A stretch of DNA of 64,000 nt from Actibacterium lipolyticum (GCF_900184935.1 NZ_FXYE01000002.1:1417501-1481500); one strand, 5' to 3'; positions 14,086 through 19,865 are shown, counted from the first letter of the stretch. Notes: a model not told the origin generated them from the sequence alone. A program made the numbers and translations.

Positions 14086-15627
14086 CTAGACCTTGTGAAA
14101 CCGTATCTCGAAGACTGCGCCGGGGTCGTTCGGGCGCACGTTCAGCTCTGCGCGATAGATATCCAGTATCGCCTTGGTAATCGCCAACCCCATTCCCGTT
14201 CCGCCCATATCGCGGCGGGTCGTGAAAAACGGATCAGCCACCCGGTTGGCATCGCTTGGCGCCAACCCGTTGCCATTATCCGCAACCCTTAGCACTCCTT
14301 CGGAATAGGTGATGCGCACCTCATCCGCACCATGCTGCTGCGCATTTTGCGCCATGTGGTACAGCACCATCCGGCCATGTTCGGCCGAAATCGGAAGCGT
14401 GACGCCACTTAAACCCTCGGCCAAGACCGCAAGCCCCTGAAGGTCGGGCATCATATCCATCAATCGGCCCGGTCCGCCCGGCTGCTGCCCCCGCATTTTC
14501 GTCATCTCACGAAGCCGGCCAAGCAAGGTGTTCATACGGCTTGCTTCTGATCGGATGTTGCCCAGCAATTTTTGACGCTGTTCCGCAGGTAGGTCTTCCA
14601 GTTCCAGCAACTCCGCAGCCCCAGAAATGGCAGTGACTGGGGATTTCAGCTCGTGCGTTACATGGTCCGTGTAAATCGAAAGCTCTTGCGCATGTTGAGA
14701 AAGCGTATCCGCCATCGAAAGGACACTCTCCCCCAGTTCAGCCAGTTCTTTGGTCCCGTAATGCGCCGAAACCTGCGACGGAGATGTCTTGCCCTTGGCA
14801 ATCGCAGAGGTGTTGTTCTTAAGCGCGTGAATCGGGGCCGATAGCAGCCGCAACAGCAGAAAACCAACCAGCGCCGTGCCAGAAACAGTCGCCGCGACCA
14901 TGATCAGAAACCCAGCCCTTTCACGATACAAGAACTTGTTCAAATTGGTTGGCGTCCGCGACAAGTAGACCACGCCAATGACACGGTCGTCCGCGATGAC
15001 AGGATAGGTCACAAAGACACGGAACTTCGTATCCCTGCTTATCGAAGTCAGCGGATGGGGGTCATAATCCTGTTCTCTTGCGCGTAGAATCGAGCCGACC
15101 TGACCACCAAGCGCCGACTGCACCTCGGTTAGGGTGGCGAATGAACGTCGCTCCTCTCCGCCAATGTTGGAACCGGTGTCATCCAGAAAAACCACACCCG
15201 AAAGCGTGGTTTTTCTTGCCCCGCGCGCCAGATCGATCATCAAAGGATAGATCGCCGCATATCGCGGGTCAGCCGTGGTTTCGTCTGGTACGCCGTCCGG
15301 GCGCGGGGCATGCAATCCATCAGCCTGAAGACTTAGCCCCGGCTGCGCGGGGTGAAAATCCGCCCCCCAATGGGCCTTAAGTTCCTCATTCAGCGGCGTG
15401 CCGATCATGGGGCCGTCCAAGGCCTGAAACGCGTCGGAAAAGGCCTGTGCATAAATGGCCCCCTGTTCGATCAAGGCCGCCTCTGTCGTGCGGATAAATT
15501 GGTTCGACGTCAGGCGCATCGCCAAAAGCGTCACAACCGGAATCGCGATCAGCAACGCGCAAACCGCAAAAACAACCAAGATCAACGGAGGGCGCCATTT
15601 TTTGCGAACTTGCGTCACAGCGCGCAT
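14086..15627 (-). CDS. Sensor histidine kinase of the exosortase operon (CreC-like)
   Basis: Membrane sensor kinase, last gene of the exosortase operon. From the ATG at 15627 (13-bp overlap with the regulator) it has 513 residues; a GTG at 15618 giving a GTGA overlap is an equally good start. A first membrane helix near residues 13-38 is followed by a periplasmic domain of about 200 residues, then a second helix (FLIMVAATVSGTALVGFLLL), a HAMP-like linker, and HisKA with the phospho-accepting His in VTHELKSP (about residue 325). The ATPase boxes DNGNGL and GGTGMGLA are intact, so the kinase should be active. Architecture resembles CreC. The signal is unknown; an envelope cue is inferred. Confidence 0.85.
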   Translation of the reverse strand: MRAVTQVRKKWRPPLILVVFAVCALLIAIPVVTLLAMRLTSNQFIRTTEAALIEQGAIYAQAFSDAFQALDGPMIGTPLNEELKAHWGADFHPAQPGLSLQADGLHAPRPDGVPDETTADPRYAAIYPLMIDLARGARKTTLSGVVFLDDTGSNIGGEERRSFATLTEVQSALGGQVGSILRAREQDYDPHPLTSISRDTKFRVFVTYPVIADDRVIGVVYLSRTPTNLNKFLYRERAGFLIMVAATVSGTALVGFLLLRLLSAPIHALKNNTSAIAKGKTSPSQVSAHYGTKELAELGESVLSMADTLSQHAQELSIYTDHVTHELKSPVTAISGAAELLELEDLPAEQRQKLLGNIRSEASRMNTLLGRLREMTKMRGQQPGGPGRLMDMMPDLQGLAVLAEGLSGVTLPISAEHGRMVLYHMAQNAQQHGADEVRITYSEGVLRVADNGNGLAPSDANRVADPFFTTRRDMGGTGMGLAITKAILDIYRAELNVRPNDPGAVFEIRFHKV

Positions 15628-16295
15628 CCGCCCAACTTCACACCAACACCGTGAACCGTGACGATGACTTCGTCGCACCCCAGCTTGGCCGCCTTTGCGC
15701 GTATGTTGCGGATATGACTGTCCAAGGTACGCCCGGACATATCGGTGTTGCCGCCGTAAAGAGCATCAATCAACTGGTTGCGGCTATGGACCTGCGCAGC
15801 GTGGGTGGCAAGATAGGCCAGCAGCGCGAATTCCCGCGCCGTCAGCGCCATTTCTTCGCCGCCAAGCGTTGCAAGATGGCCTTCGCTTTCGATCTTCAGC
15901 GCACCATGTTTTAACGCCCGCGCCGGATCTGGTTTGCCCCTGCTTAGAATGGCCTTGATCCTTAGAACAAGTTCACGCGGGCTAAACGGTTTTGCCACGA
16001 AATCATCCGCGCCAAGCTGAAACCCCAACACGCGGTCAATCTCGTCATCTCGCGCTGTCAGAAACAGGATCGGCACGTTGGATTTGGCGCGAATTGCCTG
16101 ACAGCAATCAAAGCCATCCATATGCGGCATCCCGATATCAAGCACGACAAGATCAACCTCTGTGCGCCCAAGTTCCGTAAGTGCGGCTTGCCCGTTTGAA
16201 ACTTCGACCACTGTATTCCCTGCACTTTCCAGTGCGATGCGAATGATGTCACGGATATGAGGGTCGTCGTCAGCAATCAGAATACGGTGTGCCAT
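15615..16295 (-). CDS. Response regulator of the exosortase operon (OmpR/CreB-like)
   Basis: Two-component response regulator of 226 residues, partner of the downstream kinase by overlap. The receiver domain has the acidic pair DD (10-11), phospho-acceptor Asp53 in LDIGMP, Thr80 and Lys102. A C-terminal OmpR-type winged helix occupies about residues 130-226 (ALTAREFALLAYLATH through TVHGVGVKLG). It follows the VIT/VWA protein by 3 bp. The 11-bp-phased repeats upstream of the exosortase gene are the kind of site OmpR-family dimers bind, so autoregulation of the operon is a reasonable inference. Confidence 0.9.
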   Translation of the reverse strand: MAHRILIADDDPHIRDIIRIALESAGNTVVEVSNGQAALTELGRTEVDLVVLDIGMPHMDGFDCCQAIRAKSNVPILFLTARDDEIDRVLGFQLGADDFVAKPFSPRELVLRIKAILSRGKPDPARALKHGALKIESEGHLATLGGEEMALTAREFALLAYLATHAAQVHSRNQLIDALYGGNTDMSGRTLDSHIRNIRAKAAKLGCDEVIVTVHGVGVKLGGCAL

Positions 16296-16298
16296 AAG

Positions 16299-18368
16299 TT
16301 ACGTTTTAACCCGCTTGATTGGTGTGTCCAGAAACAACTCATCCGTACGCCGGCGCCGCAGGCCCAAAAGGGTCATCACCGCCGTCAGCAAAAGGCCCAA
16401 CAACGTTTCTGGTTCAGGCGAAGAAGACCCTGAGAAACCGGATGGGTAGGCCTGTTTGCTAACGCCCGACACCATGGGCAGCGGAACACCAACAGGCTCT
16501 GCCGCGGCTCCGCTGCTATTCACAACCGTTTGCGAGACTGCGACAAACGACGTGTTCTGAGTTTGCAGCGAAAACTCTAACCCCAGCTTTGTAATCTCAT
16601 CATTCGCGAGGTCGGGGTTTTCGCCCACAGCGACCTGACGTGTCAGCGAAGAGATTTTGTTGCGCGCCCAAATCAACGGCAATGCGGTGTGCTCAGGCTT
16701 GCCAGTGGTCTGGATCGTGACCGGCATCTGGGCGACCCGGCCCTGAACAACCCCTTTGACGTGAATTGTGTTCTCTCCGGCACCGTCGTGGCGGGCATAG
16801 ATGCGCAGACTGTTACCATCGAACAGATCGGGCAAGTGGCTTGGCGTCACTCCTGTTACGTTCAACTCTCCCCAATCAATCTGAATGTCCGTCAGGATGG
16901 GGGTTTTCAGGTCTGCGGCCAGATCGCGTGCAACCTCTTTCGCTTTTTCATCCACACCGACATAACGCGCGTATCCATGGCCCTCGTCCGCCATCGCGTC
17001 CAGCAGGTATCGATTGACCGAATTCCCGATCCCAAAGGCATAGATGCGCGCGCTGCCAATTCGGTTGCGGATAGTGCGCAGAACATCGGCCTCGTTCCCG
17101 ATATAACCGTCACTTAGGAACACAACGATACGCATCGTGTCACGTACCGGTCGTGTTGAAAAAGCCGTCCGGATCGCGTTGTCAATTTCTGTCCCGCCGC
17201 CGCTGCTCAGCGCGCGTACATAAGCGCGCGCCTTGCGGATGTTGGCGGCGGTTGCAGGCAGGGCGTCGTTCGAAAATCGTTGGGCCGTGTTGGCGAACGG
17301 AATGATGCGGAAATAGTCCCCCGGACGCAGCCCAACCAGCGCCGCATCCATGAACGTCTTGCTTGCCGACATAGGCTCGCCCGACATCGAACCTGACGTA
17401 TCAAGCACGAAAACCAATTCACGCGGGGCTGCGGTGTCTTCGTCAACCACCTTTGGCGGCTCGATCATAACCGAGATAAACCCGCCACGCTCATCAGTAT
17501 GGGAAAGGGTCGCGGCCTCAAGCACGTCACCACCCAGCGAATAGCGCAGCACCAAATCACGGTTGTCCATCACCTTCCCGGCTGCAAACTGTGCGCTGTA
17601 TCCGTCTTCGGTCTGGGTGATCGTCAACGGGTGCGTATCGCTGCCAAAATCTGACGCTGTTACACCGCTGGTAAAGTGCAGGTCCAAACGAACCCTGTCG
17701 GTCGCCACCTCATCAGGTACATCCAATCCGGCGACCAGTGGGTATGCTGGCACCTTGCTTACCGCCCAGGTATTCGCGGGCTGCAGCGCGTCTTCGTCCG
17801 GTAGGTCAGCGAATTCATCGGGCAAGCGTGTGCCGTCATAGCGCGGGCCAACGATCATCGGGATAACCAGTTCGTACTGATCATCAATCTTTGGCACCAT
17901 CTGAACATATCGCAGCACAACCGTCACCGGCTGGCCCGGCATAAGGTTCGCAATCCGCTGCGTGAACATATTCGGGCGGTGTTGGGTCAAAAGCGCTGCG
18001 GATTTGCCCTCGACGGCGGCTTGTTCGAATTCGGCCTGCGCCTTTGCCTTCTCACGAATTCGGGCCTGAATGATTTCGTCACCAACGCGCATCTCCATCG
18101 CGTAGATCGCGGCGTTCTGGTTCAGCGGAAACAGATACTCGGCCTCTACGGGCACAAGCGACGGGTTTTCAAACACCTGAGTAATCTCAACCGTAGACAT
18201 ATCGCCTTCGATGGTGACCTTCAGCGTGCTGTCCAACATCGGAAGGTCAAACGTGCCACCGTCCGCCTTGCCAAGAATGCGCCCGGCGACGTCCTCCATA
18301 TCGGATGCTGCACGGACGGGGTGCGCAAAGAAAACCATAACGGGCAACAAAACGAAAAACAGTCTCAT
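16299..18368 (-). CDS. VIT and von Willebrand factor A domain protein with PEP-CTERM-like sorting tail (exosortase target)
   Basis: Predicted exported surface protein of 689 residues. A signal peptide (1-20, ending PVRA) precedes a VIT domain (about 30-165) and a VWA domain (about 315-490). The VWA domain has a complete metal-ion-dependent adhesion site: Asp323-x-Ser325-x-Ser327, Thr393 and Asp420. The C-terminus is tripartite: PEPET at 651-655, a hydrophobic stretch 656-670, and RRRR at 671-674, followed by an unusually long 15-residue tail. That layout marks it as substrate of the exosortase encoded 15 bp upstream. The ATG follows GAGG with good spacing. The domain order resembles the marine proteobacterial sortase-target proteins, but the tail is of the exosortase type. 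The ligand is unknown. Confidence 0.9.
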   Translation of the reverse strand: MRLFFVLLPVMVFFAHPVRAASDMEDVAGRILGKADGGTFDLPMLDSTLKVTIEGDMSTVEITQVFENPSLVPVEAEYLFPLNQNAAIYAMEMRVGDEIIQARIREKAKAQAEFEQAAVEGKSAALLTQHRPNMFTQRIANLMPGQPVTVVLRYVQMVPKIDDQYELVIPMIVGPRYDGTRLPDEFADLPDEDALQPANTWAVSKVPAYPLVAGLDVPDEVATDRVRLDLHFTSGVTASDFGSDTHPLTITQTEDGYSAQFAAGKVMDNRDLVLRYSLGGDVLEAATLSHTDERGGFISVMIEPPKVVDEDTAAPRELVFVLDTSGSMSGEPMSASKTFMDAALVGLRPGDYFRIIPFANTAQRFSNDALPATAANIRKARAYVRALSSGGGTEIDNAIRTAFSTRPVRDTMRIVVFLSDGYIGNEADVLRTIRNRIGSARIYAFGIGNSVNRYLLDAMADEGHGYARYVGVDEKAKEVARDLAADLKTPILTDIQIDWGELNVTGVTPSHLPDLFDGNSLRIYARHDGAGENTIHVKGVVQGRVAQMPVTIQTTGKPEHTALPLIWARNKISSLTRQVAVGENPDLANDEITKLGLEFSLQTQNTSFVAVSQTVVNSSGAAAEPVGVPLPMVSGVSKQAYPSGFSGSSSPEPETLLGLLLTAVMTLLGLRRRRTDELFLDTPIKRVKT

Positions 18369-18383
18369 GGGGTCCTCACTTGG

Positions 18384-19805
18384 TTAAATATCAAGGGCGG
18401 CAAGTACCGCGGTTTCAAAATCACCCTGCGCATCCGCAGGAAGGTTTTTCGGGGTGATACGTTGAATGGATTGCCAGTTGCGCGATGACCCGTTCAGCCA
18501 GCTCCACACGGCTTCGCCGACGCTGGCGGTTTTGTGGCCATTCTCTGAAACGAAGCTAACGGCGACCGTCCATACGCGGCCATCGGGGCCGGTTGCCTCG
18601 TAGACAGAGGTTGGAATTGGGTCGAACCGTGTCCCTAGGAAACGCACATCGAATCCCATGCCAAGCAGGCAGGTCGCCGGAGAATGCAGATGGCGAAGCG
18701 GCGAACCCGTGCGCACGACGTTCACGCCAAGGGGGCCGAATTGTACCTTTTGTGCCGTGCCGCCATAGGTCGTGAAATAGGTCCGTTCGGTATCGCTCAA
18801 CGCCACAGACTGCCCACGATACCCAAGCAACTGAACAGGCATTTCGATATTCGCAACCGGCTTTGAACGATCAACAGGTTTGCGCGGGGCGTTCAGGATC
18901 ATCATCGCAGCACACAGCGCCGCCAAAACGACCGGCACGTGAAACCTGCGCGGGATGGGCGCGCAATTTGTCCGCCGAAGGCTGATCGGGGCTGGCTTTG
19001 GGCGATAGGTCAACATCACCGGCAACACCGACAGGGCCAGCGACAGCAACCCGATGCCTTCGTGCAGCACCGGCTCCATCGTATCGACGCCCAAGGCCAA
19101 TCCCGATGCAAGCAACGAAATACGCAGGCCATTCCCAAGGATGCTGACGGCCACAATGGCCACCCCACCCGTAATCGCCGCGATTAGCCGTGGGCGGTAA
19201 AGAACGTTCAGAAAGGCCCAAAGGCTGACCATCAGCAAAAGCCCGGACGCGCCAGAACAAGGCAGATCGACCAGAACGTCATGCCCGCTGATCTGCAGGC
19301 GAACACCTTCACACAGCAGGTCAGGGAAAAATGGCGAAAGCATTCCACAGGCCAGCTCGGCCGAGATTATCTGCATGGGAAAGCCCGCGACCCTTTGCAG
19401 GATCGGCCCAAGCGGCAGCGCGAACAGAAAGAAGACCGCCAACCAAAGTGGGGAAAGCGCGAACTTGCGCTGATCAAGCCGAAAGAAGGTTGCCAATGCA
19501 AAGACATCAATCGCCAACGCCAAGGCGCTAAGGATGTTGATTGCCAACATCTGACCGCCAAGACGGCAAGCCGCCGCGACCAGAAAAAACGCAAACGCGC
19601 GCCGGGCTGGCGGGGCACCCGCCGCCGGTTTATGTGCCAAAGACAGCCCAATCAGGCCTGCAATCACCACACAATAGAACGCCCCATAGGATTGATACGA
19701 AGGGTCGCGCCAGCTGGTCATCAGCCACTTGATGGGTTCGATGGCCAACATAGCCGACGCAAGGGTCAGGCCGATCCAAAGCGGGGTGTCGTGTTTTTGT
19801 TCCAT
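18384..19805 (-). CDS. xrtT: Exosortase with C-terminal EpsI-like domain (probable exosortase T)
   Basis: Membrane transpeptidase-like enzyme expected to cleave the PEP-CTERM-type tail of the neighbouring VIT/VWA protein at the inner membrane. The 473-residue product has about eight hydrophobic helices in residues 10-265. It carries the full exosortase catalytic set: Cys183 in LPCSGASG, Arg228 in NGLRIS and His248 in LHEGIG. After another helix (about 288-303), residues 320-473 resemble EpsI, including H-x-P-x-x-C at 374-379. It is the first gene of a four-gene operon with its single apparent target and a two-component system. The name exosortase T is my best recollection of the Rhodobacterales family with this partner; the exosortase call itself is firm. 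Confidence 0.88.
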   Translation of the reverse strand: MEQKHDTPLWIGLTLASAMLAIEPIKWLMTSWRDPSYQSYGAFYCVVIAGLIGLSLAHKPAAGAPPARRAFAFFLVAAACRLGGQMLAINILSALALAIDVFALATFFRLDQRKFALSPLWLAVFFLFALPLGPILQRVAGFPMQIISAELACGMLSPFFPDLLCEGVRLQISGHDVLVDLPCSGASGLLLMVSLWAFLNVLYRPRLIAAITGGVAIVAVSILGNGLRISLLASGLALGVDTMEPVLHEGIGLLSLALSVLPVMLTYRPKPAPISLRRTNCAPIPRRFHVPVVLAALCAAMMILNAPRKPVDRSKPVANIEMPVQLLGYRGQSVALSDTERTYFTTYGGTAQKVQFGPLGVNVVRTGSPLRHLHSPATCLLGMGFDVRFLGTRFDPIPTSVYEATGPDGRVWTVAVSFVSENGHKTASVGEAVWSWLNGSSRNWQSIQRITPKNLPADAQGDFETAVLAALDI

Positions 19806-19821: not shown

Positions 19822-19865
19822 GCTACGTGCAAACCCGGTTGGGATGTCGTGCAGGATTTGTGCAG
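19822..19865 (-). promoter_or_regulatory. 11-bp-phased direct repeats upstream of the exosortase operon
   Basis: Read on the minus strand, CTGCAC occurs at 19865-19860 and 19854-19849 and TTGCAC at 19832-19827, with a degenerate CCCAAC at 19843-19838. All four are exactly 11 bp apart. Tandem 11-bp spacing is characteristic of OmpR/PhoB-family regulator sites. The last repeat ends about 17 bp before the exosortase start codon. Confidence 0.6.

Follow-up and report, generated by a model that had tools for sequence, protein, structure and literature searches.

The classical PEP-CTERM/EpsH systems, such as those of XrtA and XrtD, have numerous, scattered substrates alongside exopolysaccharide genes, and the usual exosortase systems handle dozens of substrates; the acceptors of exosortases are, to our knowledge, poorly worked out. 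The regulator of the classical systems is of the sigma-54-interacting kind, and two-component control with PrsK/PrsR is known there (PMC1569441). Another described way of anchoring is the class GN ('marine proteobacterial') sortase system, made up of a TIGR03784 sortase, a TIGR03788 target with an LPXTG-like tail, and a TIGR03785 kinase. As for the anchored proteins, alternative tails of Vault/ITIH-type VIT-VWA proteins, and thus tail-swapping in this family, are already known: three kinds of sorting tail (GlyGly-CTERM, LPXTG and PEP-CTERM) appear in the 2011 rhombosortase paper, whose PEP-CTERM example comes from Verrucomicrobium (PMC3237569). On the side of regulation, the closest relative is CreBC(D)/BlrAB of gammaproteobacteria, in which the CreB/BlrA tag before creD reads TTCAC-N6-TTCAC (PMC4689548).

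How does the locus described here compare with these systems? The window, that is, the whole stretch of 64,000 nucleotides of Actibacterium lipolyticum that was analysed, has its positions 14086-19805 filled by four minus-strand genes, and the features to be discussed are the following.

18384-19805, minus strand: xrtT, exosortase T (NF033770, 676.5 bits; all residues of the candidate triad, and likewise H374, P376 and C379, identical across 10 loci)
16299-18368, minus strand: target protein with a signal-peptide-like N-terminus, a VIT domain, a VWA domain with MIDAS residues and a PEP-CTERM tail (PF08487, PF13768, TIGR03788)
16344-16451, minus strand: PEP-CTERM sorting signal of the target, AYPSGFSGSSSPEPETLLGLLLTAVMTLLGLRRRRT (TIGR02595, 24.2 bits; tail alignment; sole strong tail match in the genome)
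15615-16295, minus strand: OmpR-family, CreB-like response regulator with phospho-acceptor D53 (CreB, 208 bits; D53 invariant)
14086-15627, minus strand: sensor histidine kinase with a PAS/Cache-like periplasmic sensor, HAMP, HisKA and HATPase_c (CreC, 138.6 bits; sensor model)
19827-19864, minus strand: proposed operator TGCAC-N6-TGCAC-N17-TGCAC (pattern scan; kept in other XrtT promoters; array also before creD in genome G064)

The gap between xrtT and the target gene is 15 bp, that between the target and regulator genes is 3 bp, and the kinase gene starts from an ATG at 15627, so that it overlaps the end of the regulator gene by 13 bp. Both coordinates and gene families of the four-gene operon given in a preliminary description of this DNA are therefore borne out, and so is its remark that exopolysaccharide genes are missing from the neighbourhood: none adjoins the operon in the flanks inspected at the source locus, where the operon is bordered by an EamA transporter and, at its opposite end, by a ROK regulator with sugar ABC transporter genes. 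The enzyme family name XrtT is already known, and a search of the open-licence literature gave no paper that applies it to an enzyme, nor was any publication on the operon found in the literature searched. The present analysis adds the CreBC-like pair, the array in the promoter and the test for a single substrate.

We are fairly confident in reading the operon, from its sequence, as a dedicated and autoregulated protein-anchoring system. A signal, perhaps related to the envelope, would reach the PAS/Cache-like periplasmic domain of the kinase, and the phosphorylated regulator would then act on TGCAC boxes upstream of xrtT to drive enzyme, substrate and regulator together. The target is probably exported by Sec, judging from its N-terminus, and its PEP-CTERM helix would retain it in the inner membrane. 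As expected from the exosortase family, the Cys-Arg-His triad of XrtT would cleave it near the PEP motif and pass the VIT/VWA ectodomain to an acceptor, and the ectodomain freed from the inner membrane might be displayed on the surface or released. Protein anchoring by this chemistry is poorly understood, and the operon would represent it in a minimal, self-contained form; a genome that has one exosortase and one substrate, encoded together in one operon with a predictable switch, offers nearly the simplest setting for testing the reaction.

XrtT and its recognisable substrate

XrtT matches the NCBIfam exosortase T model over its full length (profile positions 1-472 of 472; cut-off 250 bits), and the enzyme itself does not differ from this family. 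It consists of a membrane transpeptidase-like part, in which the candidate triad C183/R228/H248 is invariant among 10 XrtT sequences, and a C-terminal domain, in which an EpsI-like HSP..CL motif includes the invariant H374, P376 and C379. It shares superfamily, PEP-CTERM logic and the Cys-Arg-His residues with XrtA and XrtD. In a profile comparison with XrtD, the membrane half alone was aligned (236 columns), which leaves the short motif as the basis for relating the C-terminal domain to EpsI. The preliminary description had suggested XrtT as a possible name for a Rhodobacterales exosortase family; the name is right, and the enzyme is not confined to one family, since it was found in three other families of the class as well.

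The target looks like a human ITIH-like surface protein. Its VIT domain scores 111 bits (PF08487) and its VWA domain 70 bits (PF13768), and it matches TIGR03788 over nearly the full length at 461.6 bits, below the curated cut-off of 551.65 for this LPXTG-tailed form. The tail, composed of the motif, a hydrophobic helix and a basic cluster, exceeds the PEP-CTERM cut-off of 16 bits, and the N-terminus, MRLFFVLLPVMVFFAHPVRAAS, is hydrophobic as read by eye. Because the structure model is moderate (pLDDT 72), only its VIT-VWA part was used, and this part matches the fold of inter-alpha-inhibitor heavy chain 1 (ITIH1, 6fpy) with E 1.8e-34 over 622 columns. The MIDAS residues D323, S325, S327, T393 and D420 are invariant, and metal binding and adhesion by the target, as supposed in the preliminary description, would be a reasonable guess from these residues and the ITIH-like fold.

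Does XrtT have any other substrate? When a profile of ten target tails (39 positions) was searched against ten whole genomes, each genome gave exactly one strong match, the target of its own operon (E 1.5e-23 to 6e-18), and the next-best match over all ten had E 0.059. Substrates whose tails are very different would escape a profile of 39 positions. Of the weak matches in the source genome, that at C2:1335771 is internal to a reading frame, that at C10:95477 belongs to a VPGPAALPLLG-type tail resembling the XrtD class, and three more coincide with VPLPA-CTERM matches; the two remaining have E 2.5 and 4.2. It is to be noted that the source genome also encodes XrtD, about 58 kb from the operon and outside the window, which scores 688 bits with the VPLPA-specific model, and that it has six VPLPA-CTERM proteins over the model cut-off and about three weaker ones. 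From sequence comparison, the VPLPA-CTERM signal of XrtD is distinct from the tail of the XrtT target. The preliminary description held that many other PEP-CTERM proteins in the genome would speak against a dedicated pair; such proteins do occur, and the objection applies in letter alone, because they carry the signal of XrtD.

On another reading, XrtT would have a general role and act on VPLPA-CTERM proteins too, the protein encoded beside it being just one substrate among many. The generic PEP-CTERM model does match both tail types, and genome G229 gives this idea its best case: XrtT is its only exosortase, about 19 VPLPA-CTERM proteins are encoded, and XrtD was not found in an assembly given as 99% complete, so that XrtT may serve other substrates there. 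However, the XrtT tail profile leaves VPLPA tails at noise level, and in five genomes (G000, G064, G289, G395 and G400) a second exosortase is present beside XrtT that would serve the VPLPA set. XrtT is also the only exosortase in G254, where no second one was found in an assembly 64% complete, and in G303, G357 and G452. The last three keep XrtT and its target, and searches of them with the PEP-CTERM and VPLPA-CTERM models gave no further credible protein of either class, which supports a dedicated pair directly; in G452, the generic PEP-CTERM model misses even the operon's own target. A general role of XrtT is thus very improbable, and 'one enzyme, one substrate', as the preliminary description proposed, holds at the level of recognisable tails, with a reservation for G229.

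Distribution of the unit and the sortase counterpart

Genomes were drawn from the bacterial family of the source (395) and from its class (385), G000 being counted in both. XrtT is rare and patchy: it was found in 9 of the 395 and in 4 of the 385, three of these four belonging to other families. A contig scan with single-sequence XrtT patterns had matched Ruegeria lacuscaerulensis alone, probably owing to too strict patterns, and it was replaced by whole-genome searches. The resulting set of 13 loci comprises nine from the family draw, that of R. lacuscaerulensis and three from other families of the class. Conservation of the neighbourhood across relatives, named as a check in the preliminary description, is complete for the central pair: xrtT and the target gene are adjacent in all 13 loci. 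Two-component genes adjoin them in 12, and loci without these genes, which were to weaken the claim if they were the rule, turned out to be the exception (1 of 13). The four-gene order is kept in all ten Rhodobacteraceae-type loci, with the contig of L047 ending inside the kinase gene and an extra DUF4153 membrane gene standing between target and regulator genes in G289. As for the other families, L123 has the order of the window, L124 has the order regulator-kinase-xrtT-target, and L125 has xrtT and the target gene alone. Genes outside the unit differ among the loci, only generic families being common. This lack of conserved surroundings, together with the patchy distribution, suggests that the unit may be a cassette moved between genomes.

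A TIGR03788 search (E 1e-60) detected the VIT/VWA target in 15 of the 395 family genomes: the nine with XrtT, where it scores 443-466 bits, and six others, where five scores are 641-746 bits and one match is split over two contigs. In all six, the target gene is followed by that of a protein with a sortase domain (PF04203), and the best NCBIfam model of these sortases is class GN, with two over the cut-off, one just under it and three somewhat below. Thus, in this family the target accompanies XrtT in nine genomes, a class GN sortase in six, and both in none. The two systems are alike in that a homologous VIT/VWA target lies beside one enzyme, and they differ in the enzyme, which is unrelated, and in the LPXTG-like tail. 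The pairing of the target with XrtT and its exclusivity against the sortase form are what was tested here in addition to the known alternative tails. The kinases are also different: that of the XrtT operon matches only a part of TIGR03785, at 47.4 bits against a cut-off of 612.2. No regulator or kinase like those of the XrtT operon was found beside the six sortase loci, the flanks of which are short in some contigs. The sortase parallel drawn in the preliminary description therefore concerns anchoring alone; there it is confirmed, within the same bacterial family and in disjoint genomes, and it does not extend to the two-component pair. That one kind of target is paired with an exosortase in some genomes and with a sortase in others amounts to a natural experiment on the purpose of the anchor.

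The TGCAC array and the two-component pair

Upstream of xrtT, the sequence CTGCACAAATCCTGCAC at 19849-19865 (minus strand) is the single match in the window, with 0.01 expected. Relative to the start codon of xrtT, the window, L005, L047 and L049 share TGCAC boxes at -59, -48 and -26, and L045 and L046 have them at nearly these positions; for L045, L047, L048, L050 and L124 the start codon was fitted to the protein alignment and is not that of the longest frame. Thirteen xrtT promoters of 120 bp contain 31 TGCAC boxes on the coding strand and not a single one on the opposite strand, as against a mean of 1.5 and a maximum of 7 in 2000 single-base shuffles, and pairs with an 11-bp period number 8 against 0.0005 expected. 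Spacings are 11, 22, 44 or 55 bp, except that an extra box in L045 splits 22 bp into 9 and 13. The distance between boxes is 22 or 55 bp in L044 and L123, and in L048 and L050 a single clear box is left.

Each genome has only one or two copies of the exact pair CTGCAC-N5-CTGCAC. The second one in the source genome is inside a SecD-like reading frame and was set aside as chance, and extra matches in other genomes are also mostly inside reading frames. In G064, the sole exact pair is about 90 bp before creD, and with a third box 22 bp further it forms the same three-box array, while the xrtT promoter of that genome has boxes 22 bp apart and no exact pair. Among the ten XrtT genomes, creD is present in G064 and was not found in the other nine, so the creD argument rests on this single genome; over about 9 kb to each side of its creD there is no two-component pair like that of the XrtT operon. 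The boxes before xrtT and before creD of G064, TGCAC-N6-TGCAC, have the same 11-bp repeat as the CreB/BlrA tag with one base different.

The regulator consists of Response_reg and Trans_reg_C domains and the kinase has HAMP, HisKA and HATPase_c domains. Their best NCBIfam matches are CreB (NF008296) and CreC (NF008312), with scores below the curated cut-offs of 273 and 356 bits, respectively. The model of the periplasmic sensor (pLDDT 81) resembles those of WalK, DcuS and CitA, which are PAS/Cache-like, with Z about 11 over 112-133 aligned residues; this informs on the fold class and not on the ligand. The likeness to CreBC(D)/BlrAB extends over both proteins, the 11-bp period of the direct-repeat tag and, in G064, the associated creD; the differences are the box, TGCAC instead of TTCAC, and the main output, which is here an exosortase with its substrate. 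An OmpR/CreB-type regulator beside one adjacent substrate also distinguishes the operon from classical exosortase systems. From the CreB-like 11-bp repeat and the creD array of G064, we conclude that the operon regulator is very probably a CreB-type protein which binds the TGCAC array and controls its own operon.

Might the two-component pair merely sit beside xrtT and the target gene, and another regulator bind the array? Binding by the operon regulator is predicted from sequence, its score is under the CreB cut-off, and L125 has xrtT and the target gene without the pair. But L125 is also the locus from which the array is missing, and in L124 the array stays directly before xrtT despite the different gene order; together with the CreB-like period of the repeat and its copy before creD, these observations make another regulator improbable. 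What the kinase senses is a separate matter. It might monitor the target itself, as feedback on surface display or misprocessing, instead of a general envelope signal, and co-inheritance of kinase and target in one unit and the periplasmic position of the PAS/Cache-like sensor would fit this. PAS/Cache sensors, however, usually bind small molecules, and the creD link suggests a broader envelope role, so that we consider this version unlikely; it would in any case refine a self-controlled anchoring operon and is compatible with it. A signal that is perhaps envelope-related, as the preliminary description supposed and as judged indirectly from the CreBC-like pair and the PAS-like sensor, is preferred here.

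For the operon as a dedicated anchoring system under its own CreB-type regulator, the promoter array provides a testable regulatory link from CreBC-like signalling to protein anchoring, of which no description was found in the literature searched. As a tentative extension, which we regard as somewhat less probable than its opposite, a CreBC-type envelope-stress circuit may have been rewired so that its main output is not CreD but a private exosortase and one ITIH-like substrate; the outcome might be an envelope-repair or surface-remodelling response, in which the place of the anchoring enzyme is filled independently by an exosortase or a class GN sortase according to lineage. Finally, a further array of three boxes occurs in L045, about 440 bp upstream of the first one and ahead of a frame of 30 codons.

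A second exosortase and its substrates

The A. lipolyticum genome carries a second exosortase, XrtD, outside the window and about 58 kb from the xrtT operon:

L043:11984-13582, XrtD (locus L043 is G000:C10:1365000-1384900)

Its neighbours there, as identified by eye from sequence, appear to be genes for polysaccharide export and nucleotide-sugar synthesis. A rhomboid protein of the same locus matches rhombosortase weakly (25.7 bits against a cut-off of 84). In G229, another XrtT-bearing genome, about 19 VPLPA-CTERM matches are found, and a search of the assembly for XrtD did not find it; either the assembly has a gap, or XrtD has been lost, or XrtT replaces it.

Variant operons

Two other XrtT-bearing genomes, G289 (locus L051) and G357 (locus L045), have the following features:

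L051:5234-6739, DUF4153 membrane protein gene between target and regulator (PF13687, 191.5 bits)
L045:10626-11342, response regulator
L045:6650-6688, second array of three TGCAC boxes, located about 440 bp farther upstream than the array at xrtT

The DNA-binding domain of the G357 regulator is about five residues shorter than in regulators of the other loci, and the second array precedes a 30-codon frame.
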